Virus record (IMG/VR): IMGVR_UViG_3300045918_000320
Location: 1-64,000 of that record
DNA: 64,000 bases
Reading direction: 5' to 3' (one strand)
Origin: a virus
Both the position numbers and the translations under genes were made by a program. Position 1 is the stretch's first letter, and the number at the start of each line of letters is the position of its first letter. Below the pieces are notes generated by a model. That model did no database searches. It was given only the letters and a program-made list of their open reading frames with translations, and had not been told where the DNA came from. Below are positions 5,268 to 47,501 of this stretch, piece by piece.

Positions 5268-5286
5268 CCTATAAGTAGTTGTTAAT
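5268..5286 (-). promoter_or_regulatory. T7-like late promoter (consensus copy)
   Basis: On the minus strand this reads ATTAACAACTACTTATAGG, counted -17 to +2. It is followed by a short leader with an AGGAG site and the start at 5251. The core ACT..(C)TTATAGG resembles the T7 core ACTCACTATAGG. Confidence 0.8.
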
Positions 5287-5297
5287 TTTATAGTTAC

Positions 5298-5717
5298 TTA
5301 TTCATCAAAAAATGCTAAGTTATCTCCGCCTAATCCCTTAACCAGTAAATACACTTCTTTACCTGAGCTACAAGATACAAATCCTTGTTTTTCCATTGCT
5401 AATACCATCCCTTTTGTCGTGGTGTAATATTGCATATATTCAAAGCCTTGCTCTTTAGCTTGAGATACAATATACTCTAATAAATGTTCTAAAGCTTCTA
5501 GGCGACGAATAGAAGACTTATTTACTATTGTATATCCCATTAGTGCCATATTCGTATCTGTCTTTAAAAAACAGCTAAAAGCTATAGGTTCGTTTTCTCG
5601 GTATACAAAATAACTATTTTCTGGAATCATTTTGGAAGTAGGTGCTGCCCAATCCCATTCTGAAAACCATTTCATGAGTAATTCTAAATCTTGAGGACTA
5701 TACTTTTTTATGTGCAT
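5298..5717 (-). CDS. GNAT-like acetyltransferase
   Basis: 139 residues with a GNAT-type layout: an N-terminal strand/helix, a central strand (ENEPIAFSCFLKTD), then helix ALEHLLEYIVSQAKEQGF and the C-terminal MEKQGF segment typical of GNAT folds. The usual Q/RxxGxG/A acetyl-CoA loop is not clear (NKSSIRRLEA stands in its place), so activity is uncertain. It overlaps the end of the Hint-bearing virion gene by 20 bases and is the last gene of that late transcript. T7-like phages also carry acetyltransferase-like proteins near their virion genes, which fits. Substrate unknown. Confidence 0.6.
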   Translation of the reverse strand: MHIKKYSPQDLELLMKWFSEWDWAAPTSKMIPENSYFVYRENEPIAFSCFLKTDTNMALMGYTIVNKSSIRRLEALEHLLEYIVSQAKEQGFEYMQYYTTTKGMVLAMEKQGFVSCSSGKEVYLLVKGLGGDNLAFFDE

Positions 5718-8106
5718 TCATGTACACCTTTAATAGTCTATTTTTATTTTTCTGTGAGTTTAATTTTTCTAATCTTTCGTCTTCAGTATAATCTTGAGTA
5801 TCGTCTATTTCAGAAATATCCGCCCAGACTTGGTGATCTTTAGTTATAACAATATGCTTTTCGTTAGCTATAGGAACTACAACATGACTTTTTAAATCTG
5901 TAGATTTTGCTTGTTTACTATCTCCTACACGAATCCATTTACCATCTTCAAAAACAGCATGAGTAGAGGATACTAAAACATCTCCATAATATACCATTTT
6001 GTCAGCTACAGATTCTCCTACTCCATTTACTTTTCCGCCATGAAGCATTTCATCTCCAACTTTTAAATCTTTAACTTTTTTTAAAGATCCGTCAGCCATA
6101 AATATTTCAGTTTCTGGATCAAAACATACCCATTTTAAAGCATTAACTACAGCATTTCCTACTTTACCTGCAGTGCTACCTAAAGAATGAATTACGTTAC
6201 CAGCTAAGTCTACTGGATTTTTAACAAAAGTATCTATTAATCCTTGCCCTACACTTTTTGATAATTGTCCTAAACCTGTTCCGATATTTCCTCTAGTGAT
6301 ATTTTGTAATCCTTGCCCTGCACCTTTAAAAGAACGTACAACATTAGAAGCTGTATTACCCACACTATTTAATCCTATATTTCCTAAATCTGCTACTGCA
6401 TTTAAATTTCCCGAAACTAATCCTGAAGCACCTTTTACAGCATCTCCAGCTACTCCCATTCTATTTAAAGTATTACTATTTTTTATACTAGTAAGTCCAT
6501 TAGCTCCGGCCTGTAGAGTTTGTGGATTAACTATGTACGATAATCCTCCTGTAGCTCCAGCTAAGGCTGCCTGAGTAGCTGCTAACGCTGCAGCTTTCGC
6601 TGCTGCACTAGCTTTCTGTTCAGAGTTTCCTCCGCCTGAAAGTGACTTTAAAACATTTATAGCACCGCTTACTCCTCCCGGAATAGCTGATGCTGCTTGA
6701 TCACCTATTAAATTTGTAACTTGATCTGCTGCAAAATTTTGAGCTTGATTTTGAGCTAAGCTAGAAGCTGCTTGCCCAACATTACCGCTTGCTAAACCAT
6801 TTACTAATCCAGAAGTCATTCCAGAATCAGCTCCTGTATAATCAGAAATTAATCCTGACAAACTATTTGACACTTGCTGTTTTGCTAAATTTTGTATAGC
6901 TTGCTGAGGATTATTTATAGCTGATATACCTTGATTTAATAATCCGCCATCTATTCCTAAAGTATCTGCTACTTTATTTACAGCTTGATTTTGAACACTA
7001 GTAAAAGGATTAAATCCTGTAGCTTGCTGAATAGCATTTCCAGCTTGAGATTTTGTATCCTGAGCTTGCTGAATATATGGATTAGCTACAGCATTAGCTT
7101 GAGCTGCTACTGGTTTGTAAGCTGCCGTTGCTTGCTGATTAGCTTGTTGAAATACTGGCTGGGCAGCGTTATTAGCTGCTTTAGTAGCTTGTTGCTCTGC
7201 AAAACCTGCTACCATTTTTGGAACATCAGGTTTAGCCGAAGGTTTTTGATTTTGTGCTGCTTTTTTTATTTGTGCTTTTTGGACAGCATCATTTTGTTTC
7301 TGTACATTTTTTTCCATTTGTGACTGTTGGAATTTAGCAAAAGAACCTGAATTATTTTCAGCTTCTCCAGAATTAGTTTGTCCAAAATTATTTGCAAATT
7401 GATTTGAGAATTTATTTTGTCCGGAAAGTTTACTTCCAGACGCTAAGGCTCTACCTTCCAAATTAGGATTAATTACTGTATCTTCGTTTTTAGTAGTATT
7501 TGTAGTGCCGGTATCATTTATATCAAATTTTTTATCTGCCATTTGCTTTTTAGCAAAATCTGCAAATCCTCCAGAATTACCAAAGTTTTCTAAATCTCCA
7601 ATTTCATTTTTGTATACTAAGTTTCCACTAGCATCAAATCCTTGGAATTTATTTCCTTTAGATTCTAAATCTGAAAATTGATCTTTATTAAAATTATCTT
7701 CATAACTGCCGTTTTGAGCTTGAGGATTAGAAGTTTTAAATAAATTTGTAGCATATTTAAATTGAGTTTTATCTAGAGATTTTATATCTCCATCTTGTTT
7801 TACAACTGGATTACCATCTTTATCAAATCCGTAAAAATTACCTTTAAGGGAATCATATAATTTTTGTTGAGATTCATTATCAGCTTTATCTTGATCTGAC
7901 ATAGCAGATTGGTTAGCTTGTTGAGCCTGAGCTTGTTGTATTTGACTATTTATATCATTTATTTTTTGTAATAAAGAAGAACTTTGAGTTTGTTGATTTT
8001 TTCTAGCTACTGTATCGCTAGGGTCAGAGTAAGTTTTATTATTTATAGCAGTATATTGCTGATTTAATATCGCTAATTGTTGTTGAAGTGAAGCTATATC
8101 TGCCAT
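5698..8106 (-). CDS. Large virion protein with C-terminal Hint (hedgehog/intein-type) domain
   Basis: 802 residues. Residues 1-640 are Gln/Ala/Asn-rich and probably structural. From Cys661 (WVCFDPETEIFMADGS) to the end there is a Hint domain: catalytic Cys, an LKVGDEM turn, and an SSTHAVFEDGKW block with the conserved His. Hint domains cleave the peptide bond before the Cys. There is no C-terminal extein or HN/C splice end, so cleavage rather than splicing would be expected. It lies in the tail/ejection part of the late module between two virion genes. The structural role of the N-terminal part is inferred. Confidence 0.75.
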   Translation of the reverse strand: MADIASLQQQLAILNQQYTAINNKTYSDPSDTVARKNQQTQSSSLLQKINDINSQIQQAQAQQANQSAMSDQDKADNESQQKLYDSLKGNFYGFDKDGNPVVKQDGDIKSLDKTQFKYATNLFKTSNPQAQNGSYEDNFNKDQFSDLESKGNKFQGFDASGNLVYKNEIGDLENFGNSGGFADFAKKQMADKKFDINDTGTTNTTKNEDTVINPNLEGRALASGSKLSGQNKFSNQFANNFGQTNSGEAENNSGSFAKFQQSQMEKNVQKQNDAVQKAQIKKAAQNQKPSAKPDVPKMVAGFAEQQATKAANNAAQPVFQQANQQATAAYKPVAAQANAVANPYIQQAQDTKSQAGNAIQQATGFNPFTSVQNQAVNKVADTLGIDGGLLNQGISAINNPQQAIQNLAKQQVSNSLSGLISDYTGADSGMTSGLVNGLASGNVGQAASSLAQNQAQNFAADQVTNLIGDQAASAIPGGVSGAINVLKSLSGGGNSEQKASAAAKAAALAATQAALAGATGGLSYIVNPQTLQAGANGLTSIKNSNTLNRMGVAGDAVKGASGLVSGNLNAVADLGNIGLNSVGNTASNVVRSFKGAGQGLQNITRGNIGTGLGQLSKSVGQGLIDTFVKNPVDLAGNVIHSLGSTAGKVGNAVVNALKWVCFDPETEIFMADGSLKKVKDLKVGDEMLHGGKVNGVGESVADKMVYYGDVLVSSTHAVFEDGKWIRVGDSKQAKSTDLKSHVVVPIANEKHIVITKDHQVWADISEIDDTQDYTEDERLEKLNSQKNKNRLLKVYMNAHKKV

Positions 8107-8496
8107 TTAACTAACCGCCAAAACATTTATTATAAATTTAGTACTAACTGGTAATCCAGCAATGTGCGTAATTATAGCATTGTTTTTATTTATTGTAAAG
8201 TTAATAAAAGGAGCACTAGTGGGAAATATTCCATTAGTATTTGTAGCCGAGGTTACAATAAATCCTTTAAATCCATTAACCTGAGAAAGAGGTAATATAA
8301 CCTGATTTGTAGGTACACCAAATGCATCTACTATAACCTCAAAGGTTATATATTCATAGCTTAAAGTATTAGATAAAGCTTTACTAACCTCATCAAAAAA
8401 TGGGTTAAGTGATCTTGCCAATCTTGCCATATCATCTTTAGCAGTAGAGGAAAAATCATTTACATTAATTTTTTTAGTTTGTAAATTCTTAGCCAT
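8107..8496 (-). CDS. Small virion protein (tail-associated)
   Basis: 129 residues. A helical N terminus (MARLARSLNPFFDEVSKALSN) is followed by a beta-rich C-terminal half. It overlaps the upstream 1077-residue tail gene by one base. Proteins of this size and layout occur beside ring/tail genes in podoviruses. Virion role inferred from place. Confidence 0.55.
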   Translation of the reverse strand: MAKNLQTKKINVNDFSSTAKDDMARLARSLNPFFDEVSKALSNTLSYEYITFEVIVDAFGVPTNQVILPLSQVNGFKGFIVTSATNTNGIFPTSAPFINFTINKNNAIITHIAGLPVSTKFIINVLAVS

Positions 8497-12728: not shown

Positions 12729-13115
12729 TTAACAATTAATTTTTTTAGCTTTTAATTCTGCAAGTTGCTTTTCTAATTCAGCAATTTTTGAATCATCAGA
12801 ATCGCCTTCCATAGATTCGTCTTCGCCTAATTCTTCTTCGGGAGATTCCAAAGATTCTTCATCAGAAGATTCTTCTAGAGGATTTTTAGAAACTATGCCT
12901 TTAGCCATTTCTAAACCTTTTTCTAATCCGGCTTTATTTGGAGCTGCTACAGAAACTTTTTTTAAGCCTCCTATATCTTCAGCCATTCCGCCTTTTAACA
13001 TATCCATAATTCCTTGAACAACAGATTTTTTAGCATCTAAATGTTTTTGGTCTACTGGATTTTTTGATTGCTCTGCAGCTTTCTTTTTTAATAAGTCAAT
13101 AAATTCTTTTTCCAT
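12729..13115 (-). CDS. Small acidic protein, first gene after a phage promoter
   Basis: 128 residues: a helical N terminus, a middle (about 75-108) made mostly of Glu, Ser and Asp, and a short C-terminal coiled coil (AELEKQLAELKAKK). No family recognised. It heads a late transcription unit 21 bases after the T7-like promoter start at 13136. An assembly or virion role is possible but unproven. Confidence 0.6.
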   Translation of the reverse strand: MEKEFIDLLKKKAAEQSKNPVDQKHLDAKKSVVQGIMDMLKGGMAEDIGGLKKVSVAAPNKAGLEKGLEMAKGIVSKNPLEESSDEESLESPEEELGEDESMEGDSDDSKIAELEKQLAELKAKKINC

Positions 13116-13134: not shown

Positions 13135-13153
13135 TCTATATATAGTTGTTATT
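13135..13153 (-). promoter_or_regulatory. T7-like late promoter
   Basis: The minus strand reads AATAACAACTATATATAGAA from about -17. It keeps TAACAACTA and TATAG. It precedes the gene starting at 13115 and drives the ring/tail unit. Confidence 0.7.
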
Positions 13154-17620: not shown

Positions 17621-19105
17621 TTAAGCGTTCTTTTTAACGTGAGATACATTTAAGATCAAATCTGTTGCATTTTTAGCTTCACCAGCTAACCATACGTTGT
17701 TACCAGATCCACTTGGAATAGAAGTTGATAAAGCACTTCCTGTCCAGTAATATTTTGCACCTGCAGTAGCACTAGTTAAAACACCAGCACAAATAGATTC
17801 AACTGCTTTTACGTAAACAATTTGACCTACAGTAACTGCATTCATTGCTATACCTATAGCTTGAGTGTTGTTAGCTAAAGTTGAGTATACAGATACAGTA
17901 TCGTTTGCTGACATATAAACTAATTGACCTTTAGCAATTGTTCCACCAGCAGTATAAGGTTGACCTACACTTGCAGCAGCAGCAGCTAATTGTTGTAAAG
18001 CAGCTTCTACGTTATCAGTAGAAAAAAAAGATCCAGCATCTGCAATTGGCATATCAACAGCAGAAACTTGTCCTGCTCCTGTACCAAAATCAATCATAGT
18101 ATCTTTAATACCTAAAGCTTTTACTCGTAAAGTATCAACATTTATTTCGATAGAAGAAGCATCTACATTTACTGATAGTACTCCTGAAGAAAATCCTAAT
18201 CCAGCTCCGGCAGCAGAAGAGTCAATTTGAATATCATTACCTACTTTTACTAATCCAGTAGACGCCGTAATAGAATCAGCAGCATTAAAGAATACAAAGT
18301 TAATTGCATCTGTACCAATTGTTACTACTGTACCTTGTTGTACAAAAGCTTTACCAGCGTTAGAACCTAATTGAACAGCAGTATACGCACCATTGATTTC
18401 GTCAATTGGAGTAATAGCATCAAAATCAGTAGCTCTAACTGGAGCACCTGAAGCTTGAACGATATAGATACCATTTTCAGCAGGAGCAACTTGATCCTTA
18501 ATTAAAATACGCACTCCAGCTACTAAAGTTACAGTATCTACTACTTGACCAGCAGCAAAAGACGTAGCTAAAGTTCCAGCTACTACAGTAGCAACAGAAA
18601 CAGCAGCTTTTGGCTTAAGACCTTGTTGGTAAGATTGTAAAGTTTGTAAATTAACAGCATCTGTACCTGTAGATGGATCTGCTAAGTTAGTTAACTTAAA
18701 TCCGCCCATAGATTGAGCACCTGTAAATGCTCTAGTACCATCAGCTTTAGTATAGATAGTGTGGTCATCATCACCTAATCCAGCTAAAGTTCCGTGATCT
18801 AATGCAGCGTTTAAAACTGAAGTATTAATCAATGAATTGATATACCCAGCAGCATCAGTTTGAACAGGTTTTGAAGCATCAGCTACTCCAGCAGAAGATG
18901 AAATAAATTCATTTTCTCTGAAATAACGAGCATCATGAATGTGTTCGTCTGCAGCATCAGCACCATCAACTAAGTGACCTAACTTTGTATCAGTTAGTTC
19001 TTTTGTTGCAGTTTTAAATGATGCAAGTTGTAGAGAGTCCGTTGCAGCCGAGGCTTCTTGATCGAAACCGTCTGCGTTTTTGTAAATTACCTTAATATCA
19101 GCCAT
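17621..19105 (-). CDS. Fibre/decoration protein
   Basis: 494 residues. The middle (DEHIHDARYF, LNAALDHGTLAGLGDDDHT, GFKLTNLADPSTGTDAVNLQTLQ) is typical of phage fibre shafts. The last ~110 residues (TIAKGQLVYMSANDTVSVYS ... IGIAMNAVTVGQIVYVKAV) resemble the 143-residue neighbour at 19501, so a decoration or trimer domain is probably shared. It has its own possible promoter and a clear terminator, which suggests a highly made virion protein. Confidence 0.75.
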   Translation of the reverse strand: MADIKVIYKNADGFDQEASAATDSLQLASFKTATKELTDTKLGHLVDGADAADEHIHDARYFRENEFISSSAGVADASKPVQTDAAGYINSLINTSVLNAALDHGTLAGLGDDDHTIYTKADGTRAFTGAQSMGGFKLTNLADPSTGTDAVNLQTLQSYQQGLKPKAAVSVATVVAGTLATSFAAGQVVDTVTLVAGVRILIKDQVAPAENGIYIVQASGAPVRATDFDAITPIDEINGAYTAVQLGSNAGKAFVQQGTVVTIGTDAINFVFFNAADSITASTGLVKVGNDIQIDSSAAGAGLGFSSGVLSVNVDASSIEINVDTLRVKALGIKDTMIDFGTGAGQVSAVDMPIADAGSFFSTDNVEAALQQLAAAAASVGQPYTAGGTIAKGQLVYMSANDTVSVYSTLANNTQAIGIAMNAVTVGQIVYVKAVESICAGVLTSATAGAKYYWTGSALSTSIPSGSGNNVWLAGEAKNATDLILNVSHVKKNA

Positions 19106-19132: not shown

Positions 19133-19151
19133 TACAATACTAGTTGTTAAT
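19133..19151 (-). promoter_or_regulatory. Possible degenerate T7-like promoter
   Basis: The minus strand reads TTAACAACTAGTATTGTAGC. The upstream TTAACAACTA is intact but the TATAG part is degenerate. It overlaps the stop of the gene at 19147 and lies 30 bases before the start at 19105. Confidence 0.35.
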
Positions 19152-19932: not shown

Positions 19933-20670
19933 TTATATTTTCCTAACTCTAGTTAATACTCTTTTTGTAGCATCTGAGTATGTTATTTCTATTGTTGTAG
20001 CTAAAGTTGAAGTTAAATAATAAGCATATTGCTCTGTTGTAGAAGTAGGATATACTACTTGTATTTCATCAAATTGAATATTAGATAACAGGGAACCTTG
20101 CATTTTTGTATCAATACTCTGCAAGGAATTATTTCCTGTTACTTGGTTAGCCGATGTAGCCAAAGCTCCAGCACCGCTTAGTACTGCTGTAACACTATCT
20201 TGACTACTATTTAAATTTCTAATATTCTGAGTGTTTGCTGGCTCAGTTTTTTGTTCTAATTCTGTTAGTATAGTATCTTGTTTAGCTAAAATATTATTTA
20301 ATTGTCCAATTTGAATAGACTGATTAAATGCAGAGGCATCTCCTCCCCCAGAAGTTCCCCCGGAGGCTACGTGAAATCCACTACCAATAATTTCTACATA
20401 AGTAGAATTTGAAGAGTATGTAGTACAAGTAATTTCTAGAAAATCAAATAGAGAAATATCAAAAACTACTTCTTGACTACCTACTATTGTTCCTATTAAT
20501 CCAAAAGAATCTTTGCCTTGTATCTTTCCTCTAATTTGAAATATGTTTGTAGATGCAGCATTTATTACCTCAAATTTAGCTTGAGTGTCTTCATCAATAT
20601 CAAATATCCCCAGATTTTTCACTGAGGATACGTATTGATTTATGCCGAATTTACCTGAAGAAGAAGCCAT
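19933..20670 (-). CDS. Virion adaptor-type protein, paralogue of the gene at 22087
   Basis: 245 residues. The N-terminal ~110 residues (KFGINQYVSSVKNLGIFDIDEDT ... SLFDFLEITC ... VEIIGSGFHVASGG) match the N terminus of the 230-residue protein at 22087 position for position in key residues. The remainder is helical (ILAKQDTILTELEQK). It is the first gene after the promoter at 20688-20706. Probably the base of a fibre; inferred. Confidence 0.65.
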   Translation of the reverse strand: MASSSGKFGINQYVSSVKNLGIFDIDEDTQAKFEVINAASTNIFQIRGKIQGKDSFGLIGTIVGSQEVVFDISLFDFLEITCTTYSSNSTYVEIIGSGFHVASGGTSGGGDASAFNQSIQIGQLNNILAKQDTILTELEQKTEPANTQNIRNLNSSQDSVTAVLSGAGALATSANQVTGNNSLQSIDTKMQGSLLSNIQFDEIQVVYPTSTTEQYAYYLTSTLATTIEITYSDATKRVLTRVRKI

Positions 20671-20687: not shown

Positions 20688-20706
20688 CCTATAAGTAGTT
20701 GTTAAA
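20688..20706 (-). promoter_or_regulatory. T7-like late promoter (consensus copy)
   Basis: The minus strand reads TTTAACAACTACTTATAGG exactly as the consensus, followed by AATT and the start at 20670. Confidence 0.85.
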
Positions 20707-28819: not shown

Positions 28820-29287
28820 TTAAGAATTAAGTATACCAATGCCTCTAAATTTAATTAATCCAGAATATAGTCCGGAAGTTAAATTAGAAGATTTATATTG
28901 TACTTGCCCTTGTAATGTTATATCAAATGTTACTCCAGAATTACCTATACCGTCTTGTTGCAGTATCCATCCTGTACTTGTACGCAATCCTACTAATACA
29001 AATTCTTCTGCTAATTCAATAGCACCTGAAGTACGATAAATATTTCCACGTACTGCAAAAGATCTAACTATAGTTGGATTAAATTTAAAATCAGGAATAT
29101 CTGTAAGTGTTGTAACATTGTTTGCAATAATAGCTGCAGTTTCGAGAATGTCTGAAGTACCTTTTAGGGAATTAAGTACTTTAGTAACTTCGGCAGCCCA
29201 TCCAGTAGCATTCTCTCCCCAAGGCGGATTTTCACCATTCTCTGGATAGTCGAATGGAATATTATTTACTGTTAGTGTTATAGCCAA
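28820..29287 (-). CDS. Small fibre/decoration protein with shared C-terminal domain, TTG start
   Basis: 155 residues. The N terminus FDYPENGENPPWGENATGWAAEVTKVLNSL resembles short virion fibre-base proteins. The C-terminal ~100 residues (TIVRSFAVRGN ... FVLVGLRTSTGWILQQDG ... GQVQYKSSN ... IKFRGIG) match the end of the 447-residue fibre at 20733. The frame has no ATG near its start; TTG at 29285-29287 follows an AGAGGTG site. First gene after the promoter at 29312-29330. Confidence 0.65.
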   Translation of the reverse strand: MAITLTVNNIPFDYPENGENPPWGENATGWAAEVTKVLNSLKGTSDILETAAIIANNVTTLTDIPDFKFNPTIVRSFAVRGNIYRTSGAIELAEEFVLVGLRTSTGWILQQDGIGNSGVTFDITLQGQVQYKSSNLTSGLYSGLIKFRGIGILNS

Positions 29288-29311: not shown

Positions 29312-29330
29312 TCTATAAGTAGTTGTTAAA
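29312..29330 (-). promoter_or_regulatory. T7-like late promoter (consensus copy)
   Basis: The minus strand reads TTTAACAACTACTTATAGA, then GAAT. It starts the long fibre unit 29287 down to 20733. Confidence 0.85.
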
Positions 29331-29366: not shown

Positions 29367-30092
29367 TTATTCTGGTAACTTATTGGATTTTTTAATGTTA
29401 TCTACTGCCCACATAGGTTTTAAATTACTGTAATGACAAAGCTTATATATTTCTTCTACTGTTTTTGCTGAATCTAGCGGTACATGGTGATCGATATGAA
29501 TATTTCCAGCATATACTTCCTCCCAAGACATATTTCCAGTAAATTGATTCTCTATATGTTGTCTAAATTCTCCTTCTGAACACCCTATATACTCTACAAA
29601 TTTACGTTTTGCAGTCCATCCTTTTTTTCTTAATGCGTCATGAGTTCTACATCTACATCTTCTTTTTAAAACAAAAATAGAATCTGATTTATATCTTTCT
29701 TTTTGTCTTCTATTTGCATTTTTAAATATTTTTTCCTTATTATTTTTATAATAAGTAATTACTTTTTCTTTAATAATTTCTTTATTTTTAATATACCTTA
29801 TTTTTGATTTTATTACTCTGCAAGATTTACATTCTGCAAAAAGTCCATTACTATTATTTTTATCTTTGTGAAAATTATCAAAAGGTAGCCAATTAGTACA
29901 TAGACAACATCTTTTAGTATTGTTTTCTAAATTTACTACTACCTCTCTGGGTTTGCATCCACTTAATCTACGTTTTTCTGATTTTCTGCAGTCATTACAT
30001 TGATGATGCGGAATTCTTTTTCCAGATTGAGTTTTTACTGAAAGATATTCTATTAATGATTTTTCTATTTTACAAAGATTACAAATTTTCAT
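29367..30092 (-). CDS. HNH homing-type endonuclease with N-terminal zinc motifs
   Basis: 241 residues. Two Cys4-type pairs near the N terminus (CNLC ... CNDC; CCLC ... CKSC) probably bind zinc. The C terminus has the HNH core HIDHHVPLDSA ... NLKPMWAVDNIKKSNKL. It is a free-standing endonuclease lying between the capsid terminator and the fibre unit. It has its own variant promoter at 30110-30128 and is not homologous to its neighbours. Probably a mobile homing endonuclease. Confidence 0.8.
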   Translation of the reverse strand: MKICNLCKIEKSLIEYLSVKTQSGKRIPHHQCNDCRKSEKRRLSGCKPREVVVNLENNTKRCCLCTNWLPFDNFHKDKNNSNGLFAECKSCRVIKSKIRYIKNKEIIKEKVITYYKNNKEKIFKNANRRQKERYKSDSIFVLKRRCRCRTHDALRKKGWTAKRKFVEYIGCSEGEFRQHIENQFTGNMSWEEVYAGNIHIDHHVPLDSAKTVEEIYKLCHYSNLKPMWAVDNIKKSNKLPE

Positions 30093-30109: not shown

Positions 30110-30128
30110 TCTACTAGTAGTTGTTAAA
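30110..30128 (-). promoter_or_regulatory. T7-like promoter variant before the HNH gene
   Basis: The minus strand reads TTTAACAACTACTAGTAGA. The upstream half is consensus, and TTATAG is changed to TAGTAG. Confidence 0.6.
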
Positions 30129-30224: not shown

Positions 30225-31457
30225 TTATGGATGTGTAATTCCGCTAAGTAATAGTGTTCTACCTATTGCTTTAGAGAACAAAGCTTGATTAGAATAACAT
30301 CTTAACTCATATCCAGCATTGTTTGGAGCGATAGTTAAGAAATTATCTGGTAATCCCGGAAGAGAGAAAGTTACATCAGTAGCACCGATTCTTAAGAAAT
30401 CTTCAGTAGCTATAACGTAAGCATATCCTTCTTTACAGTAAATAGAAGAATGAATTTCGATTTTTCCAGCTTGGTGGAAGAATTCGATAGCCATAGTTCC
30501 ATTTTCTAATTTCTTAGTTGAATAAGAAGAATCGAAACGTCTTAAAGCAGCTTGATCTTTCATTAAAGAAGCCCAAGTTTTTGGGTTAACGATACAGATA
30601 GTATCTGACTCTAAACCTTTTTCTACTGGACGAGACATTTTTTTAATAAGTACTTCAAAAGTAAGTTCTCCACCTACGTTTTCTACGTTACCTTTCCACA
30701 ATTCGTATTGAGCAGCATTAATATCGAAAAGTGTGCTTGTATTAGATAAGATTTTATGTAATCCAGCAGCTTCTTTTCCGTTAGCTCCGGCAGGAAGAAT
30801 AACGTCAAGATCTTGAACAGCAGCAGAAGAAGTTGTAAAAACTACTCTTTTGTTATCAAAATCAATAGAAGAAATTACGAATACACCACGAGATGTAGCA
30901 AAAGTTGGATCGAAAATTTCAACTTTCATATCTTTAGCTCCAGAGAAAACTCCCGGTGCCCATTCAGCAGCTACGATATCGATTTGTGAACTAGTTACTG
31001 AACCAGCTTTTACAACACCAATATTAGTTTGACCGTACATTAAAGAAACTTCAAGTTTCTTTGACATAGATTCCGCCATTGCTTGAACGATATATTTAGT
31101 AGCGTTTTCGAAAGCTCTTTGTCCTTTTGCTGGAGCTGATGCCAATAGATCGTAAGCGATTACTGATCTAAGTAACATTTGAGCACCTTTTACTCTTGCA
31201 TGTTTAGTTACAGAAGAGATAGCGTCATTAAGAGCGAAAGCTCCATCATCAGCGTCTGCATAAGTAACACCGTGCTCTAATTGAAGAGCTAATGGTTGGT
31301 TGTAATAGTTACCCGGCATTTTTTCTCTTGCACCGAATTTAATTAAACCTTGAAGTTTAGATTGAATAGGTATCATGTTTGATACATTGTCTGCGTACGT
31401 TTCTTTTACTAGACCGTTAAGCGTATCTAGGTTTGCTGCACCTGCTGGTAAAGCCAT
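30225..31457 (-). CDS. Major capsid protein
   Basis: 410 residues, close to the size of P22-type coat proteins. The N-terminal segment (LNGLVKETYADNVSNMIPIQSKLQGLIKF), the long helix with AESMSKKLEVSLMYGQ, and the C-terminal domain ending in a beta strand match the order of HK97-fold coats of the P22/podovirus kind. It stands alone between its own promoter with a ~140-base leader and a strong terminator, as expected for the most abundant virion protein. Codon ends look more GC-rich than in the neighbouring genes. Confident by synteny, less so for family name. Confidence 0.85.
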   Translation of the reverse strand: MALPAGAANLDTLNGLVKETYADNVSNMIPIQSKLQGLIKFGAREKMPGNYYNQPLALQLEHGVTYADADDGAFALNDAISSVTKHARVKGAQMLLRSVIAYDLLASAPAKGQRAFENATKYIVQAMAESMSKKLEVSLMYGQTNIGVVKAGSVTSSQIDIVAAEWAPGVFSGAKDMKVEIFDPTFATSRGVFVISSIDFDNKRVVFTTSSAAVQDLDVILPAGANGKEAAGLHKILSNTSTLFDINAAQYELWKGNVENVGGELTFEVLIKKMSRPVEKGLESDTICIVNPKTWASLMKDQAALRRFDSSYSTKKLENGTMAIEFFHQAGKIEIHSSIYCKEGYAYVIATEDFLRIGATDVTFSLPGLPDNFLTIAPNNAGYELRCYSNQALFSKAIGRTLLLSGITHP

Positions 31458-31595: not shown

Positions 31596-31614
31596 TCTAT
31601 AAATAGTTGTTAAA
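31596..31614 (-). promoter_or_regulatory. T7-like late promoter of the capsid gene
   Basis: The minus strand reads TTTAACAACTATTTATAGA. Its inferred start lies 140 bases before the capsid ATG, giving a structured leader with GCAGAATAACTCTGC and GTTTCAG...CTGAAAC hairpins. Confidence 0.8.
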
Positions 31615-31712: not shown

Positions 31713-32654
31713 CTAGAAATGATCATCCCCTAAAGATTTCCAGAAGTCTCTTGGGCTAGGTTTTTTTGTATCAGTCTTTGGCTCCGGTCTTCTTCCTGTA
31801 TCCTGTACTTTTACTGCCTGAGAGTTTTTAGATCTTACAGATTGTATACGTTTATTACGAATTGATTTAACTCTATCAGGAGTTACTAATTCTTCTAATA
31901 CTTCATCTGGTAATTTACCCATCATATCACGCATATCTTTTAAATAAGCTTGTTTTACTAGAGGTACAATGTCTTTAGCATCTACATCTATTCCATTATC
32001 AAAAGCTACTGCTAACATTTGAGCCATTTTATTTACAATATAAGGAGAATTAGGTAAATCTCCAGTATCTATTGCTGAAATAATTTCATTTTGAATATGT
32101 TGAGAAGCTTCTTGCTCTAATCTTTCCATTTCAGCTTTTTCTTTAGCTTTAGATAATGAAGTTCTTTCATCTTCTAATTCTTGTAATCTTTTTCTAGCTT
32201 TTTCTAATTCAATTTGCTCAGGAGATTTCATTTCTTCTTCAATTTTTTGTTGAAGAATTAATTCTGCTATTTGTTCTAAATTAATTCCTAATTCTGGATG
32301 TTTTAAAATTTCTAAAGGATTAGATTTTAAACGCTCAATAAAAGCATTCATTTCAGCATTAGTTTGCTCTAATTGTTTTTTAGCCGCAGCAGATGATTGA
32401 AATGCTTCTTGGGCAGCAGCTTCCATTTGTAAAGCTTTACGAATACGAGATTCGTCGTTTAAATCAATTTTAGATTTAACTTCTTTTCCATTTACTTTTA
32501 ACAAATATTCTCTTTCTAGCTTTTCAATTACTTTTTGCTCTACTGGAGAACTTTCACTACTTTCTGATTCCATTGATTCCAATTCTACTGGATCAATAGT
32601 ATCTGCACTTGATTGTTGAGATGTTGCGGCTGAGTCGCCTGAGTTTTCTGACAT
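31713..32654 (-). CDS. Scaffolding protein
   Basis: 313 residues, highly charged and almost entirely helical. The Ser/Glu-rich N terminus is followed by coiled coil at about 75-190 (LEKARKRLQELEDERTSLSKAKEKAEMERLEQEA), and a basic C terminus (RRPEPKTDTKKPSPRDFWKSL) fits a coat-binding tail. It stands directly before the capsid gene and has its own promoter and terminator. Family-specific homology was not verified. Confidence 0.75.
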   Translation of the reverse strand: MSENSGDSAATSQQSSADTIDPVELESMESESSESSPVEQKVIEKLEREYLLKVNGKEVKSKIDLNDESRIRKALQMEAAAQEAFQSSAAAKKQLEQTNAEMNAFIERLKSNPLEILKHPELGINLEQIAELILQQKIEEEMKSPEQIELEKARKRLQELEDERTSLSKAKEKAEMERLEQEASQHIQNEIISAIDTGDLPNSPYIVNKMAQMLAVAFDNGIDVDAKDIVPLVKQAYLKDMRDMMGKLPDEVLEELVTPDRVKSIRNKRIQSVRSKNSQAVKVQDTGRRPEPKTDTKKPSPRDFWKSLGDDHF

Positions 32655-32722: not shown

Positions 32723-32740
32723 CCAAATATAGTTGTTAAA
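32722..32740 (-). promoter_or_regulatory. T7-like promoter variant of the scaffold gene
   Basis: The minus strand reads TTTAACAACTATATTTGGA. The TAACAACTA part is intact and the start region is TTTGG, as in the variants at 47394 and 47483. Confidence 0.65.
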
Positions 32741-34890: not shown

Positions 34891-35072
34891 TATAACCTCT
34901 TAGTATGATATAAATCACCAATATGATTTCTAAATCCTTTATCAAATTTCGCTTTTTCTTTTTTTATTTTAGGAATAGTTGAAACTTTTTGCTTAGGTAC
35001 AGATTCCATTTCTGGTTCTTTAGCTTCTGGTTGTTTAATTCCTAATTTTTCTTTTAGTTTTTGGAATTTCAT
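34890..35072 (-). CDS. Small basic portal-operon protein
   Basis: 60 residues, Lys-rich, starting MKFQKLKEKLGIKQPE. The same LKEKLGI string recurs in the C termini of the following genes. The start codon overlaps the portal stop by one base, so translation is probably coupled. No family recognised. Confidence 0.6.
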   Translation of the reverse strand: MKFQKLKEKLGIKQPEAKEPEMESVPKQKVSTIPKIKKEKAKFDKGFRNHIGDLYHTKRL

Positions 35073-37105
35073 TATTGTCCGTTTCCTGTTATATTTGCTA
35101 AACCTTGTTGCGGAGTAGCTACACCTTGAGGAGGCTCTGCTGGACTCGGCTGATTTGGCATATTTTGATTTGGCATTTGCCCTTGATCTTGCATTATATC
35201 TCCTGCACTTGGATTTGGTGCTTGTTGCATTTGTCCTTGAGGTGCTTGCCCTTGAGGCTGTTGAGGAGCTGCTATAGGCTGGTATCCTAATACTTGTAGT
35301 AAAGCTGGATCTACAGTTTGTCCTAATGTAATATGTTCTTGAATATGATTCAAAATTAAAGCTGCATGTTGATCATCATCTCTAATATCTGGATCATCTA
35401 ATAAACTAGCATGTTCTTTAATATGTTCAGCATGGTCGTCAATAGCTAAAGCTTTAATTTGCTTTCCATCCATTAACTTTTCATTTTCCATTTCAATTTG
35501 ATTCATTCTTCTAGTATTTCTATCAGTCATTACTTCAAGTTTACCAGTATTAATAACTTGAATATACTGATCAATAGTAAATTCATCAGCTTTCATTTGT
35601 AATAATTGTTCCGCCATTTGAATTCTACCGGCAGTAGTTTTAGCTAAAGGATTTCCCACATCAACTACTACTCTATTTACTTCTTGAATATCATCTGATT
35701 TAAATTGTTTTAAATATGCTTTATTATTTCTACCAATAATACTAGCTACTCTAGGCTCTGTGGCATAATCTTTTAATACTTCAATTATAGCTGTACCAAC
35801 GTCCTCTAAAAGCTGAACGTATTGTTGCTGAAGCCCAGAAATAAATTGAATAGACATCGATTGTACTAATGCCAATGAAGTTCCAGACTTTAAATTAGCT
35901 TCAGGATTACCTCTAGTAACTGAGTTTACTCCTGAAAGTGTTTCCATTAATCCTTCCAACTTATTTACTAAATCAAATGACATTGGATTAGTGCCAAGTA
36001 AATTCATTACTTCAGGTTTTTCCAAACCTTCAATAATATTTAATCCACCTGATAAATTAGACATAGAAACATTAGAACCGGTTTTAACAAAAATATTTTG
36101 TGTACCAAAAGCTACTTGATTTGAAAAAATAGAAGTATAAACTGTATTCACTGCCTCTTGGAGAGGAATTAAATCGAAGAGGCTGGAATAACCCATTGTT
36201 GTACCTAGTACTTCATTCGGAGCAATTCGGTATACTGGAATTTGTTTATATGGTAAATCTTGATCTGTTAAAATAACTTTTTCTGAAAGAAATACTACTT
36301 CTCTACCATTAGGTAAAGAGTCTGTTGGTCTGTGGTAAAAAGTAAATATGGGAACTTCGTCTGTTGCCATTTGTTTATTCATTACTAAAGTTTGATATTT
36401 ATCTTTACCGTCTAATCCTAAAATATCATCTTCATATTCTGGAAATTTAGCAATTAAATCATATCTATTTTTAAAATCAATTGTAATCATCCAATCATGG
36501 TTCGTGCTATCTTTAGAAATGTCAAAAATGACTTCAAAGGGGGATAGATTAGAGAATTTAATATCTCCTTCACGAATAACTGTACCGGTTTCTTCGTCTT
36601 CTTCAACGATTTTACCAATACTAGTATCCCATTCCATTTTAATATAACCAGCACCAAGTACAATAGCATATTCCACCGCAGTTGAGATGAATCTTTCTAA
36701 TCTCTTTTCTCTCATATAATAATCTAAAAGTCCAGTAGCAAGTTGAGCTTGTATTAAACTTTTTGGATCAGTATTTGCGGCTCTAGCCTCTAAAGCTGGT
36801 CTAGAAGCGATAGTCATAGTCTTAATGTGTTGAGCAATATTTCTGATATGATTTACTGGAAGGTTAGCTAACTCGCCCTGCTCTCCCCCAAAAGAAATTT
36901 GGTGAGAACCAGCGAAAGATTGAAAAAACATACCATGGTAACTAGCCCAGCATTGTTTAATTTTATCGGAGTAGCCCATAGCTTTAGAAGTAGCTTGCCA
37001 CTCTCCAACTTTACCAATTAATACTTCAGCTAAATCAGTACCTTCTTTTTTAGCAAAATATACATTATCGGTTTTTTGTTTTTTTGTAAAATTAAAACTA
37101 TCCAT
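35072..37105 (-). CDS. Portal protein
   Basis: 677 residues from the chosen ATG at 37105 (MDSFNFTKK), preceded by GGAG. A longer frame to 37162 would include the T7-like promoter inside the gene, so the internal start is preferred. The sequence has the order of P22-type portals: an N-terminal wing (LPVNHIRNIAQHIKTM), the ARAANTDPKSLIQAQLATGLLDYYMRE helix, the VEYAIVLGAGYIKMEWD strand, and a Gln/Pro-rich C-terminal tail (about 630-677). It is followed by four tightly coupled small genes. Size and synteny with TerL and scaffold support the call. Confidence 0.85.
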   Translation of the reverse strand: MDSFNFTKKQKTDNVYFAKKEGTDLAEVLIGKVGEWQATSKAMGYSDKIKQCWASYHGMFFQSFAGSHQISFGGEQGELANLPVNHIRNIAQHIKTMTIASRPALEARAANTDPKSLIQAQLATGLLDYYMREKRLERFISTAVEYAIVLGAGYIKMEWDTSIGKIVEEDEETGTVIREGDIKFSNLSPFEVIFDISKDSTNHDWMITIDFKNRYDLIAKFPEYEDDILGLDGKDKYQTLVMNKQMATDEVPIFTFYHRPTDSLPNGREVVFLSEKVILTDQDLPYKQIPVYRIAPNEVLGTTMGYSSLFDLIPLQEAVNTVYTSIFSNQVAFGTQNIFVKTGSNVSMSNLSGGLNIIEGLEKPEVMNLLGTNPMSFDLVNKLEGLMETLSGVNSVTRGNPEANLKSGTSLALVQSMSIQFISGLQQQYVQLLEDVGTAIIEVLKDYATEPRVASIIGRNNKAYLKQFKSDDIQEVNRVVVDVGNPLAKTTAGRIQMAEQLLQMKADEFTIDQYIQVINTGKLEVMTDRNTRRMNQIEMENEKLMDGKQIKALAIDDHAEHIKEHASLLDDPDIRDDDQHAALILNHIQEHITLGQTVDPALLQVLGYQPIAAPQQPQGQAPQGQMQQAPNPSAGDIMQDQGQMPNQNMPNQPSPAEPPQGVATPQQGLANITGNGQ

Positions 37106-37126
37106 TAGTACTCCATGAGTATAAAT

Positions 37127-37145
37127 CTCATAAGTAGTTGTTAAT
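37127..37145 (-). promoter_or_regulatory. T7-like promoter of the portal unit
   Basis: The minus strand reads AATTAACAACTACTTATGAG. TAACAACTACTTAT is consensus and the start is GAG. It lies 23 bases before the chosen portal ATG. Confidence 0.7.
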
Positions 37146-37194
37146 TTCTCGAATTTACTCAAAAACTACGAAAAAATCACAGCTTTAAGCTAAA

Positions 37195-38614: not shown

Positions 38615-39019
38615 TTAATTCTCCGAATCTTCCGGACTAGATTTTAAAGCTATCTCAATTAATTCTTGAGGAGAGTATTGTTTAACTGTATCTTTAGACT
38701 TAGGTTTTTCGGCTAAATCTTTACCTTTTATTGCTAATAAAGTTTTTGTATATAGCTCTACTAATTTTGCTTCAGAATATTCTAAAGGTTTTTGTTGGCA
38801 TTTTACAAAAAGTCTACCTAATTCTATCTTACAAATTTCTTCTTCATTGCTAGCTATAGCAAGGCTATGAGAATTATGTTTAATTAAATCTTCTAAATGT
38901 TTTTTTTTATTTTCTACTTCTTTTAATTGACTTTGTAATACTAAATTAGTTTGCACTAGTCTTTCCGCAAATTCTCTTAATTCTTTTTCTGTTTTATACT
39001 GTGATAAGTCTACTATCAT
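38615..39019 (-). CDS. Possible terminase small subunit
   Basis: 134 residues, helical, with a central coiled coil (LVLQSQLKEVENKKKHLEDLIKH). It lies directly upstream of TerL, the usual place of a small terminase, and overlaps the preceding gene by four bases (ATGA). No HTH is obvious, so the call is by position. Confidence 0.5.
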   Translation of the reverse strand: MIVDLSQYKTEKELREFAERLVQTNLVLQSQLKEVENKKKHLEDLIKHNSHSLAIASNEEEICKIELGRLFVKCQQKPLEYSEAKLVELYTKTLLAIKGKDLAEKPKSKDTVKQYSPQELIEIALKSSPEDSEN

Positions 39020-39294
39020 TTTTTAAATCCACCTAGAGATTGTACAAATTGATCTTTAGTCTTTATACTCTCTACATTATTTCTTAAATTTGTTATTTCT
39101 TCTTTTACTTTGTTAATTTCTTCAGCCTGAACTTCATTTAATTTCTCAATTTTCTTAATTTCTACTACCTTATTTATTAAATTATAGAAAATAATACTAA
39201 TTGCGATTACTGAATCAGCAAATCCTATAGGTCTAACAATACATTTTATTAAAAATAGACAAGCAATTGTGAAAAAGACATTCTTTTTTGACAT
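39016..39294 (-). CDS. Small membrane/coiled-coil protein, first gene of the packaging unit
   Basis: 92 residues. Two hydrophobic stretches (about 6-18 and 26-42) are followed by a helix EKLNEVQAEEINKVKEEITNLRNNVES. It could be a holin-like or membrane-anchored spacer protein. It heads the unit read from the promoter at 39391-39409 after a ~100-base leader. No family recognised. Confidence 0.6.
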   Translation of the reverse strand: MSKKNVFFTIACLFLIKCIVRPIGFADSVIAISIIFYNLINKVVEIKKIEKLNEVQAEEINKVKEEITNLRNNVESIKTKDQFVQSLGGFKK

Positions 39295-39390: not shown

Positions 39391-39409
39391 TCTATAAGTA
39401 GTTGTTAAA
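39391..39409 (-). promoter_or_regulatory. T7-like late promoter of the packaging unit
   Basis: The minus strand reads TTTAACAACTACTTATAGA, then GAGT. It is the rightmost promoter of the late module. Confidence 0.85.
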
Positions 39410-40196: not shown

Positions 40197-40224
40197 TTGA
40201 CAAATTAATTATATTTGATATACT
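40197..40224 (+). promoter_or_regulatory. Host-type promoter giving a leaderless HU-like mRNA
   Basis: TTGACA at 40197-40202, 16 bases, then TATACT at 40219-40224. The ATG is at 40232, seven bases after the -10, where transcription should begin. No ribosome site precedes the ATG. Confidence 0.7.
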
Positions 40225-40884: not shown

Positions 40885-42507
40885 ATGTCAGAATTTGATG
40901 TTTTTTCAAACAAATTTGCTCAGGATATTTTTTTACAAAAGTATTCTATGGATGGACAAGAAACTTGGGAACAAACCGCACGAAGAGTTACAGAAGCTGT
41001 ATGTAATCAGCTAGTAGATAATCAAACAAAAGAAAAAATATTCAAATTAATTAAAGATAGAAAATTTATTCCGGGAGGAAGATATTTATATTCTGCTGGA
41101 AGACCGTTTCACCAAGTAAATAATTGCTTTCTTTTTAGAGCTGAAGATTCTAGAGAAGGATGGGCAGACGCTACTTATAAAGCTACTAGTGCCTTAATGA
41201 CAGGAGGAGGAATTGGATTCGACTATTCCGCTCTTCGACCATCTGGTGCAATTATTAAACGAACTGGAGGAACTTCTACAGGGCCTTTAGCTTTAATGAA
41301 TATTATTAATGAGACAGGTAGATACGTAATGCAAGGTGGACAAAGACGTTCAGCTATTTATGGATCTTTAAACTGGCAACACGGAGATATACAAGCATTT
41401 TTAAAATGTAAAGATCATTCTCCAGAACTACGAGCAGCTAAAGAAAAAGATTTTAATTTTCCTCTACCTCTAGAACTTACAAATATTTCTGTAAACTATG
41501 ATACAGAATTTTTTGTAGCTATTGAAAATGAAGAGCATCCAAAACATAAACAAGCTAAAGAAATATTTATGCAGAATTTTAGACAAGCTGTAACTTCTGC
41601 AGAGCCGGGATTTAGTTTTAATTATTTAAAAGATAATGAAACTTTAAGAAATGCTTGTACTGAGGTGACTAGTGAAGATGATAGTGATAAGTGCAATTTG
41701 GGTACTCTATGGATTAATCGCTTTAGAGATCGTAAGGAGTTTGCCGAAGGTGTCAAATTTTCTACTATTTTTCTACTTTGCGGTGGTATTTATTCTGACG
41801 TACCTAATGACAAAATACGTGAAGTAGGATTAAAAAATAATAGAATTGGATTGGGACTTGGCGGTATGCATGAATGGTTAATGCTTCGTGGAGAAAAATA
41901 CGAAGTTACTCCAGAGTTACACAAATGGTTACGAGTATACGAACAAGAGTCTAATTCAGCAGCATTTATTTATGCAAAAGAATTAGGAGTAGCAGTACCT
42001 AAAGGTATTAGAGCTATAGCACCAACAGGCACTATTGGAATTATTGCTGAAACAACTACAGGAATTGAGCCTTTATTCTGTAAATCATACAAAAGAAGAT
42101 ATTTTAAAGATGGAAAATGGTTAACTCAGTTTGTAATTGATGGATCTGTAAAAAGACTTTTAGATAAAGGTGTAAAGATAGAAGATATACAAGATAGTTA
42201 TGATTTAACTTTCCAACAAAGAGTTAAATTTCAAGCTGATGTTCAAAATTATGTTGACATGGCAATTTCTTCTACTTGTAACATGGCTCCTTGGGGATCT
42301 GATGAAAATAATGAAAAATCTTTAGAAAAAAATGCTAAAATTTTATTAAAATATGCAAAGAGACTACGTGGATTTACAGTATATCCTGATGGATGTCGTG
42401 GTGGGCAGCCTTTAACTAGAGTAGACTTATCCGAAGCTTTAGGTAAAGAAGGGCAAGTATTTGAAGAAAATATGACAGAATGTATAGGCGGTGTTTGCGG
42501 ATTATGA
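40885..42507 (+). CDS. nrdJ: Class II (adenosylcobalamin-type) ribonucleotide reductase
   Basis: 540 residues. Active-site residues are visible: Cys81 (NNCF) and the NACTE motif (N256, C258, E260), with Cys270 in DKCNLGT. The nucleotide loop is APTGTIGI near residue 385. The C-terminal redox pair is Cys533 and Cys538 (CIGGVC). No NrdB-type gene lies nearby, and the compact size fits the monomeric B12-dependent class, which makes dNTPs for phage replication. Ribosome site GGGGGA. Its stop overlaps the next start (ATGA). Confidence 0.9.
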   Translation: MSEFDVFSNKFAQDIFLQKYSMDGQETWEQTARRVTEAVCNQLVDNQTKEKIFKLIKDRKFIPGGRYLYSAGRPFHQVNNCFLFRAEDSREGWADATYKATSALMTGGGIGFDYSALRPSGAIIKRTGGTSTGPLALMNIINETGRYVMQGGQRRSAIYGSLNWQHGDIQAFLKCKDHSPELRAAKEKDFNFPLPLELTNISVNYDTEFFVAIENEEHPKHKQAKEIFMQNFRQAVTSAEPGFSFNYLKDNETLRNACTEVTSEDDSDKCNLGTLWINRFRDRKEFAEGVKFSTIFLLCGGIYSDVPNDKIREVGLKNNRIGLGLGGMHEWLMLRGEKYEVTPELHKWLRVYEQESNSAAFIYAKELGVAVPKGIRAIAPTGTIGIIAETTTGIEPLFCKSYKRRYFKDGKWLTQFVIDGSVKRLLDKGVKIEDIQDSYDLTFQQRVKFQADVQNYVDMAISSTCNMAPWGSDENNEKSLEKNAKILLKYAKRLRGFTVYPDGCRGGQPLTRVDLSEALGKEGQVFEENMTECIGGVCGL

Positions 42508-42670: not shown

Positions 42671-42699
42671 TTGACATATAAAAATTATTATGATACAAT
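42671..42699 (+). promoter_or_regulatory. Strong host-type promoter for a short RNA
   Basis: TTGACA at 42671-42676, 17 bases, then TACAAT at 42694-42699, near consensus. Confidence 0.85.
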
Positions 42700-42797: not shown

Positions 42798-43082
42798 ATG
42801 TTTAATAAATTAAAATTTAGTATAAAAAAAATTATAGACTTAAGAATTATAAAAGTAAAAGTATTAATTACTTCTCATAATTTAGATGCGTTTGAAGCTT
42901 ACTTGGATAAACTTCCAGTAGAAGGCTCTTCTATATTTGCTTTAGATATAGAAAGATCTAAGAACTATGGACAAAACCTCTATTCTTGGATAGATGTAAC
43001 TAAAATGACAAAAGTAGGTGATGTATATCATATTTTAGATTGCTTAGATAGAAAATTTGTAGTAAGGGTATTGACAGAATAA
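42798..43082 (+). CDS. Small protein of unknown function
   Basis: 94 residues, alpha/beta, with a basic N terminus and a C-terminal DCLDRKFVVRVLTE. It begins 13 bases after the terminator of the candidate sRNA, with a GAGG site, so expression may depend on read-through. No family recognised. Confidence 0.6.
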   Translation: MFNKLKFSIKKIIDLRIIKVKVLITSHNLDAFEAYLDKLPVEGSSIFALDIERSKNYGQNLYSWIDVTKMTKVGDVYHILDCLDRKFVVRVLTE

Positions 43083-43099
43083 TATAATTGATTTATGAT
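43071..43099 (+). promoter_or_regulatory. Host-type promoter at the end of the 94-residue gene
   Basis: TTGACA at 43071-43076, 17 bases, then TATGAT at 43094-43099. The next gene starts at 43122 after GGAGGG. Confidence 0.75.
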
Positions 43100-43121
43100 T
43101 TAAATATAAGTGGAGGGACTT

Positions 43122-44931: not shown

Positions 44932-44934
44932 ATA

Positions 44935-45907: not shown

Positions 45908-45908
45908 A

Positions 45909-46807: not shown

Positions 46808-46875
46808 TGATTGGAATATGTTTATTTAGTATGTCTGTATATATTTTCCTATTAGGATTTGTGGTGTTAAAATGA
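46807..46875 (+). CDS. Tiny single-helix membrane peptide (22 residues)
   Basis: ATG 46807 overlaps the previous stop (TAATG), and the TGA at 46873-46875 overlaps the next ATG. The peptide MIGICLFSMSVYIFLLGFVV is one membrane helix with a Lys end. Coupling on both sides and a GGAG site support a real gene. Function unknown. Confidence 0.55.
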   Translation: MIGICLFSMSVYIFLLGFVVLK

Positions 46876-47057
46876 GAGTATTAATTGATACAAAAACTGA
46901 TACTACTTTTATACTTGAGTATGATCATATTACTTATATGGCTACACTTACCGATAAAAAAGGTAATGAGTTAAAGTATAGTTATATACAAGAACTACCA
47001 ATAGATTTACACGTATTTCTTGTATTTTTACATAATGAGTTTATAATATTAGACTAG
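46872..47057 (+). CDS. Small beta-rich protein
   Basis: 61 residues starting at the ATG that overlaps the preceding tiny gene. Beta-rich, ending VFLVFLHNEFIILD. It is the last plus-strand gene before the noncoding hub, and converges on the minus-strand zinc-ribbon gene. No family recognised. Confidence 0.5.
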   Translation: MRVLIDTKTDTTFILEYDHITYMATLTDKKGNELKYSYIQELPIDLHVFLVFLHNEFIILD

Positions 47058-47068
47058 ACGAGAGACTG

Positions 47069-47386
47069 TCACTCTTCTTTAACTTTATTTGTATCTCTAC
47101 GACAGCTCTCGCACTTCCTATGCGAACCTCGCTTTAGAGTAATCATATTCGAACAGCCATCAGCGATACATTGTACCTCCTGTCCAATCGGCTTGTGACC
47201 AAGCTTTAAACGTCTACCAGCATCATACTCGGCCTTATGCTTTAGAGCACAGTCAGGACATCTCCTGCCTGACCATCTCCGGCCTTTATCATCCAAATAT
47301 ATTATGTTAGTACCTTGCTGCCCTATCAGGGATCTAGTATGCCATTCCCGGCAAAAGGGACAAACAACTCCATCTAGATTATTCAT
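47069..47386 (-). CDS. Double zinc-ribbon protein read from a phage promoter
   Basis: 105 residues. CPFC ... CPDC and CIADGC ... CESC make two likely zinc-binding units with a basic stretch between them. This gene is clearly more GC-rich than its neighbours and is the only minus-strand gene in the early half. It has a GGAGG site and a T7-like promoter variant just upstream, so it would be made late. Could be an HNH relic or a nucleic-acid-binding regulator; no catalytic motif was seen. Confidence 0.7.
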   Translation of the reverse strand: MNNLDGVVCPFCREWHTRSLIGQQGTNIIYLDDKGRRWSGRRCPDCALKHKAEYDAGRRLKLGHKPIGQEVQCIADGCSNMITLKRGSHRKCESCRRDTNKVKEE

Positions 47387-47393
47387 AGTAGCC

Positions 47394-47412
47394 TCCAGTA
47401 ATAGTTGTTAAG
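47394..47412 (-). promoter_or_regulatory. T7-like promoter variant of the zinc-ribbon gene
   Basis: The minus strand reads GCTTAACAACTATTACTGGA. TAACAACTA is intact, with CTGG at the start site. Confidence 0.6.
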
Positions 47413-47482
47413 CTTACATAATATTGAACCTATAGTTTCGGCTAACCACTTATGCTGCATAGTGTACATAATATAATACTCG

Positions 47483-47501
47483 TTTAACAACTACCTGTGG
47501 A
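47483..47501 (+). promoter_or_regulatory. T7-like promoter variant, plus strand
   Basis: TTTAACAACTACCTGTGGA. It is the only plus-strand copy. The transcript would begin with the hairpin GAATAT-GAATA-ATATTC and run through the GC-rich island. Confidence 0.65.

Follow-up and report, generated by a model that had tools for sequence, protein, structure and literature searches.

A predicted late promoter across an uncultured phage family and the search for its reader

Introduction

Which RNA polymerase reads the late genes of the virus represented by IMG/VR record IMGVR_UViG_3300045918_000320? The window, a stretch of 64,000 nucleotides corresponding to bases 1-64000 of this 81,292-base viral record (G000 below), carries a short recurring element, TTAACAACTA, mostly before genes of its minus strand. 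In an initial annotation, twelve such sites were described as a late regulon with a phage-specific promoter, served by a single-subunit RNA polymerase encoded outside the window. All twelve sites were found at the positions given, and the regulon was supported and extends across a whole phage family. It is proposed here, with moderate confidence, that the late promoter is read by the host core RNA polymerase, redirected by a phage factor of an unrecognised kind. A sharply defined late promoter, in a seemingly complete genome in which no known reader was found, points to an undescribed takeover of the bacterial enzyme.

The motif in the window and in the phage family

The window contains 11 exact copies of TTAACAACTA, 10 of them minus-strand and 1 plus-strand, whereas dinucleotide-preserving shuffles (300) averaged 0.65 copies and never exceeded 4. 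The twelfth site (13136-13152) is one base off. Allowing one mismatch, the 10-mer was modestly enriched (26 copies for 16.2 expected, 1 of 100 shuffles being as high), and the core ACTACTTATAGG with two mismatches was not enriched in the window (12 versus 10.5), exact copies being present at 2 places only. The signal therefore sits in TTAACAACT together with position and strand. Ten of the twelve sites lie upstream of late-strand gene starts in the structural half. Another (47395-47411) is upstream of an isolated late-strand gene lying within the early half, and the only exact site on the plus strand (47484) precedes about 1 kb that is devoid of open reading frames (ORFs) of at least 50 residues and contains a candidate structured RNA.

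Searches with the coat protein and terminase yielded 28 loci, from which 12 records were taken (G001-G012); a scan with a coat alignment found 137 relatives, 80 of which were retrieved. An expectation-maximization search of late-strand upstream regions returned the TTAACAA-type motif as the top de novo motif in 9 of the 13 records (G000-G003, G006-G008, G010 and G011). The top motif differs in G004, G005, G009 and G012; G004, G009 and G012 still carry TTAACAAGT or TTAACAAAT at late genes, and G005 carries TARCAACCTTATA. In 86 coat-gene loci, which include near-identical ones and are thus not all independent, TTAACAA(A/C/G)T has 352 late-strand and 41 other-strand copies, versus 68 and 63 for the reversed pattern. 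Removal of 73 sites deep inside ORFs and 1 at a locus end left 278 sites in 79 of the 86 loci. In the literature searched, as far as its text was available, no prior description of the motif in phages was found.

Genomes of the family measure about 70-95 kb. G000 ends in an exact terminal repeat of 127 bases; terminal repeats are also present in G002 (123 bases), G006 (127) and G007 (127), and in none of the other nine of the thirteen records. In G001, G002 and G007, the homologues of genes 124-453 (the first of the late genes) and 80670-81122 (the last of the early genes) adjoin and converge, with another gene occupying the place of the 124-453 homologue at the G001 junction. Given the terminal repeat and an end-to-end gene junction that is the same as in relatives, G000 looks like a complete circular map from which nothing is lost at the ends. 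Its minus-strand (late) half encodes the terminase, portal and coat proteins, together with one that has a weak internal-virion match. The plus-strand (early) half encodes a ribonucleotide reductase, a DnaB-like helicase, DNA polymerase A and a polymerase exonuclease subunit, a deoxynucleoside monophosphate kinase, and AAA and VWA-like proteins.

Start site and promoter geometry

The 278 kept sites are rich in A/T at positions 10-14; 76% of them carry T at position 15 and 87% a purine at position 16. An ATG is found at motif position 16 in 7 sites and at position 17 in 4, and 9 of these 11 have no further in-frame ATG within the next 39 codons. The leaderless-type starts of loci L016, L110, L111 and L130 open proteins whose N-termini are alike by eye (L110 equals L111 in sequence), and the L016 protein is a homologue of the window protein 28820-29287. 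Shine-Dalgarno sequences start as early as position 16 or 17 (CTGGAGG, TATAGGAG). From the leaderless starts, the T/purine step and the early Shine-Dalgarno sequences, transcription should start at about motif position 16, with TTAACAACT near -15 to -7. Reading the element as a sigma-70 promoter, with its TATAAT at motif positions 10-15, would set starts downstream of Shine-Dalgarno sequences and leaderless start codons, and was rejected for this reason.

As part of the proposed reading, the late promoter of the family is probably TTAACAA(C/A/G)T with an A/T-rich stretch and a T-purine step behind it, and its sites would act as promoters in the cell. In G001 and G010 (L012 and L014), TACACA is present at -19 to -14 from the first base of the motif, that is at about -35, at a fixed distance of 14 nt before TTAACAACT; in each record, none of 200 rotations was as good. 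A block at this position would be consistent with a multisubunit-type geometry.

Host-type promoters were called with at least 11 of 12 matches to TTGACA/TATAAT. The initial annotation had stated that no host -35/-10 pair is present, which was said of the sites; such pairs do occur elsewhere in G000, on both strands. There are 7 on the early strand, 6 of them with TG before the -10, versus 4 on the late strand (39676, 39520, 33970 and 8199). Those of the early strand include TTGACA-N16-TATACT (40197-40224), TTGACA-N17-TACAAT (42671-42699), TTGACA-N17-TATTAT (49578-49606) and TTGACA-N17-AATAAT (51215-51243), all plus-strand and with the TG, as well as TTGACA-N17-TATGAT (43071-43099, plus strand). 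In 8 of ten records, host-type promoters are commoner on the early strand. We infer that the early genes are read from these promoters by unmodified host RNA polymerase.

Which enzyme reads the late promoter

The late genes would be transcribed by the host core enzyme, steered by a phage-encoded specificity factor outside the recognised families, which would direct the core to the single element at about -15 to -7.

The motif core is kept across records of 31-43% G+C and a phage factor was not recognised, as would also be the case if a host alternative sigma factor read the motif and the phage merely borrowed it. This is considered unlikely. The motif changes by clade at position 8 and downstream, the downstream part turning in relatives into, for example, ATAATTGA, ATAAAGTGAA or ATTAAATGAA, a pattern that resembles coevolution with a factor of the phage. 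Host assignment failed: the coat alignment gave no match against genome_contigs, and the five related contigs to which the portal protein led lie in differently named bins of metagenome-assembled genomes (Bacteroidia, Bacteroidales, Flavobacteriaceae, Proteobacteria and Bdellovibrionales).

The single-subunit polymerase put forward in the initial annotation was not supported. A search of the full 81,292-base record revealed no T7-family RNA polymerase gene, and PF00940 matched none of 51 family records (G000 and 50 related ones; 13 of 13 and 38 of 38 negative), with positive controls in T7, N4, Syn5 and HTVC011P. A T7-type polymerase was rejected on this basis. An enzyme too diverged for PF00940 could still be imagined to read the motif as T7 RNA polymerase reads its promoter. 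The contiguous element ends at the start, 9 of the 12 T7 core positions match by eye in some copies, and G010 variants such as TTAACAACTTACTATAG are still more T7-like. We regard this as quite improbable, for several reasons. The profile detected even the divergent N4 polymerase, at E 9.6e-15. All five early-strand ORFs of at least 380 residues in G000 were assigned by Pfam (ribonucleotide reductase, AAA, VWA-like, DnaB-like helicase and DNA polymerase A), and none of the early-strand clusters that they seed spans all ten large records. In T7 promoters TATA occupies -4 to -1 and +1 is G, with A then G at the start; the commonest feature here is T before a purine at the predicted start. The TATAG-type end noted in the window is not general in the family, being lost by clade in several records, and the likeness to the T7 core holds for some members only, as the downstream part of relatives differs.

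In G003 and G005, the large early protein was assigned as a DNA polymerase B, and the Pfam check took in only some of the large early proteins outside G000. A Pfam scan of 70 early-half proteins is reported for 25 of the 42 matched families. Multisubunit polymerases were sought in 31 records, with positive AR9 controls: PF04998 gave no match and PF00562 none above the cut-off, the single match below it being in G003 (E 8.6e-4, 13.9 bits for a cut-off of 23.4). AR9-type polymerase subunits were rejected, these families remaining below cut-off.

It is very improbable that the element, instead of being a promoter, is an operator or serves as a signal for mRNA processing or for translation: it is often near start codons, but the distance to these varies from 15 to more than 180 nt, and it also stands at the head of three of the four copies of a non-coding RNA, those of G000 and G002 being on the early strand.

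A candidate specificity factor

For a host core enzyme redirected by a phage factor, which we infer to be encoded by the phage itself, a candidate was found outside the window. The 150-residue protein encoded at 80670-81122 of the record is the only early-strand protein of G000 with a homologue in all ten large records. This results from iterated profile searches over the ten records with the plus-strand ORFs of G000 as seeds, early proteins absent from G000 not being seeds. Of 39 family records, 31 matched its profile, among them G000 and each of the 21 further ones that measure at least 63 kb; the records missed, eight in number, are all of 52.3 kb or less. Other widely shared early proteins, which are also on the short list of candidate genes, are a coiled-coil, zinc-ribbon-like protein (74482-74787 of the record) and an HNH protein (75548-75892). 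No profile match was found in T7 or N4, and tblastn over named phages gave no relative at E<=1. A homologue (E 4.1e-6) is present in the partial Silvanigrella phage record CP017838, in which GTAACACTTATAGTT, perhaps a variant of the late motif, stands before two late genes.

Comparison of the 150-residue protein with Pfam and PHROG produced weak single matches only. A structure model built with 37 sequences is all helical, with a mean predicted local distance difference test score (pLDDT) of 81.0, versus 56.6 for a first model with 10 sequences. Foldseek and VIA-align against the PDB and Foldseek against viral models returned nothing significant. We put the protein forward only tentatively as the late specificity factor, as its universality does not show its function. 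Somewhat more doubtful still is that it founds a new class, a promoter-specificity factor unlike sigma-70, gp55 and AR9-type subunits in sequence. If true, a whole family of uncultured phages would use a new class of factor that steers the core RNA polymerase of bacteria to a late promoter made of one element.

Several observations weigh against a redirected host enzyme or against this candidate. The 150-residue protein has no match to Pfam sigma families, no PDB relative at E<=1 and no significant fold match, and a role in packaging or at the lysis stage is equally possible. Nearest-neighbour agreement with the motif variant, tested on the 27 of 38 records that had a clear variant and both proteins, was 24/27 for the 150-residue protein and hardly lower, 23/27, for the coat protein. 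Sigma70_r2 (PF04542) matched none of 29 family records at E<=1, but it scarcely detects phiEco32 gp36 (E 0.002), so that a diverged sigma factor may have been missed; gp36 used as phmmer query gave no match at E 0.01. Among the 38 loci with at least four distinct sites, a significant upstream block was found only in those of two related records, where it is TACACA. The motif is diverged or unclear in G005, in the group of G014, G015, G016, G020 and G049, and in G026. At nine of the kept sites (L122, L157, L092, L093, L095, L113, L156, L159 and L139) a start codon may lie ahead of position 16; of the four inspected, three show an in-frame ATG further on, and the ATG inspected in L139 was a different one, which opens six codons only. 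Lastly, host-type promoters of G007 are fewer on the early strand (4 versus 6 late), and those of G006 are equal in number (1 and 1).

Comparison with known late transcription systems

According to the available text of PMC4331800, the late promoters of phiEco32 and 7-11 are read by a phage sigma factor and consist of a 9-bp single element, TAATGTATA. The family studied here likewise has one short element and early genes predicted to use host promoters, has an HNH family in common with phiEco32, and shares with its 77,554-bp genome the arrangement in two convergent halves. It differs by its motif, by the absence of a sigma gene among the search results and by the 150-residue family, whose best phiEco32 match has an E value of 0.7.

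T4 late promoters are read, in the part of PMC2988020 available, by the host core RNA polymerase with gp55. Both systems have a single short element, roughly one helical turn ahead of the start (a predicted one here), and lack a -35 region; the sequences are different. The AR9 late promoter is given in the accessible portion of PMC5312081 as AACA-N6-T(A/G), the final A or G being the start. With AACA upstream followed by T and a purine start, it is the closest in sequence among the promoters compared, as far as these sources describe them. The spacing is 6 in AR9 and 8 here, and AR9 encodes its own multisubunit RNA polymerase.

The likeness to T7 is limited to a contiguous element up to the start and a partial core match in some copies; no polymerase gene was found, TATAG is not conserved, and T rather than A precedes the start. 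The system is not assignable to the T7, phiEco32 or AR9 types because the defining protein of each was sought and not found; for T4, no search aimed at homologues of gp55, gp33 and gp45 was made. Its working principle, a short element, the host core and a phage factor, would resemble that of phiEco32 and T4 late transcription.

A candidate structured RNA behind the plus-strand site

Copies of a candidate RNA were found at 47484-47760 (plus) in G000, at 45079-44740 (minus) and 55640-55885 (plus) in G002, and at 70923-70673 (minus) in G032. The regions that match the first part of the G000 stretch, located with nhmmer and a covariance model, are 45012-44850 (minus) and 55664-55800 (plus) in G002 and 70860-70673 (minus) in G032. 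TTAACAA(C/A)T is present on the same strand 45-67 nt upstream of the core in three of the four copies (G000, the first G002 copy and G032); no late-type element is found upstream of the second G002 copy. That the motif heads a non-coding RNA supports its role as a promoter.

In the four-copy alignment, 12 of 20 pairs are changed on both sides. Of the alignment cells, 82.5% pair, versus 64.0% on average after shuffling (a level reached by 0 of 500 shuffles) and 26-42% in slid versions; the alignment was fitted to the tested structure and thus favours it. Pairing amounts to 100% in helix 2, 91.7% in helix 3, 65.6% in helix 1 and 75% in helix 4, a single pair. The hairpin loop CGAAGGYCAGAAGA is kept in three copies and altered in G032. 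The RNA was detected in 3 of 35 records searched; two of these had built the model, and G032 (E 1e-4) is an independent find. An exact-pattern scan of viral_contigs for the hairpin gave only the two copies of G002. Rfam had no match in the window, two sub-threshold matches falling outside the RNA core, and folding-energy z-scores did not single out the non-coding stretch. The covarying RNA is a candidate new structured RNA family. As it marks both late genes and such an RNA, the promoter helps to annotate many uncultured phage contigs.

Individual sites and neighbouring genes

The coordinates below are those of 17-bp elements, predicted as promoters from sequence. Unless stated otherwise they are on the minus strand. 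At the left of the window, TTAACAACTACTTATAG at 5269-5285 precedes the gene for a 382-residue protein (4103-5251), the start codon of which lies 34 nt past the first base of the motif; the motif is also found upstream of the homologous genes in G001, G002 and G007. The same sequence is found at 20689-20705, before gene 19933-20670, and at 29313-29329, before gene 28820-29287. The variants ATAACAACTATATATAG (13136-13152) and TTAACAACTAGTATTGT (19134-19150) precede genes 12729-13115 and 17621-19105, respectively. The site at 30111-30127 is before gene 29367-30092, which is HNH-like by eye and has no Pfam match.

The putative promoter at 31597-31613 is followed after 156 nt by the start codon of the coat gene (30225-31457), and that at 32723-32739 precedes gene 31713-32654, a scaffold by position only. 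The leaders of about 80-185 nt between these elements and their genes (31613-31457 and 32739-32654) share recurring sequence with relatives, such as GCAAGCA and CCGCACTAACGCGAT by eye, and are possible regulatory leaders. The site at 37128-37144 precedes the portal gene (ORF 35072-37162), a TTG-extended start of which overlaps it. The first late-type promoter predicted in the late half is at 39392-39408, before 39016-39294 and the terminase gene. Within the early half, the site at 47395-47411 precedes the isolated gene 47069-47386, GGAGG beginning at motif position 16. On the plus strand, the late-type element TTAACAACTACCTGTGG (47484-47500) heads the candidate structured non-coding RNA (47501-47760, conserved core 47529-47675), the 3' boundary of which is provisional.

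Other features of the genome were noted. An 802-residue late protein (5698-8106, minus strand) has a Hint/intein-like segment near its C-terminus, with a weak match to Pfam Hom_end_hint (E 0.0012). The ribonucleotide reductase (40885-42507, plus strand) shares 74-77% identity with its counterparts in G006, G008 and G009 but only about 23-24% with the best matches in G001-G004, which suggests exchange between lineages. The early half of G003 and G005 (L059 10941-12476; L066 6140-8656) has a family-B DNA polymerase instead of the family-A enzyme of G000. A small early protein (53440-53682, plus), with homologues in just 4 of 10 records, contains a PhaR-type DNA-binding domain (PHB_acc_N, E 1.9e-12); another small early protein (55545-55901, plus) contains an IF2 N-terminal domain (E 4.7e-9). 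A hydrophobic C-terminus of the APLLRIIYG-like kind is common to many short proteins (about 55-115 residues) that by eye show no other similarity. They are encoded at 55332-55541, 57304-57848, 59447-59653 and 62095-62720 and in the early half past the window, and possibly form a paralogous or module-swapped family. The terminal repeat likewise encodes an APLLRIIYG-like end.

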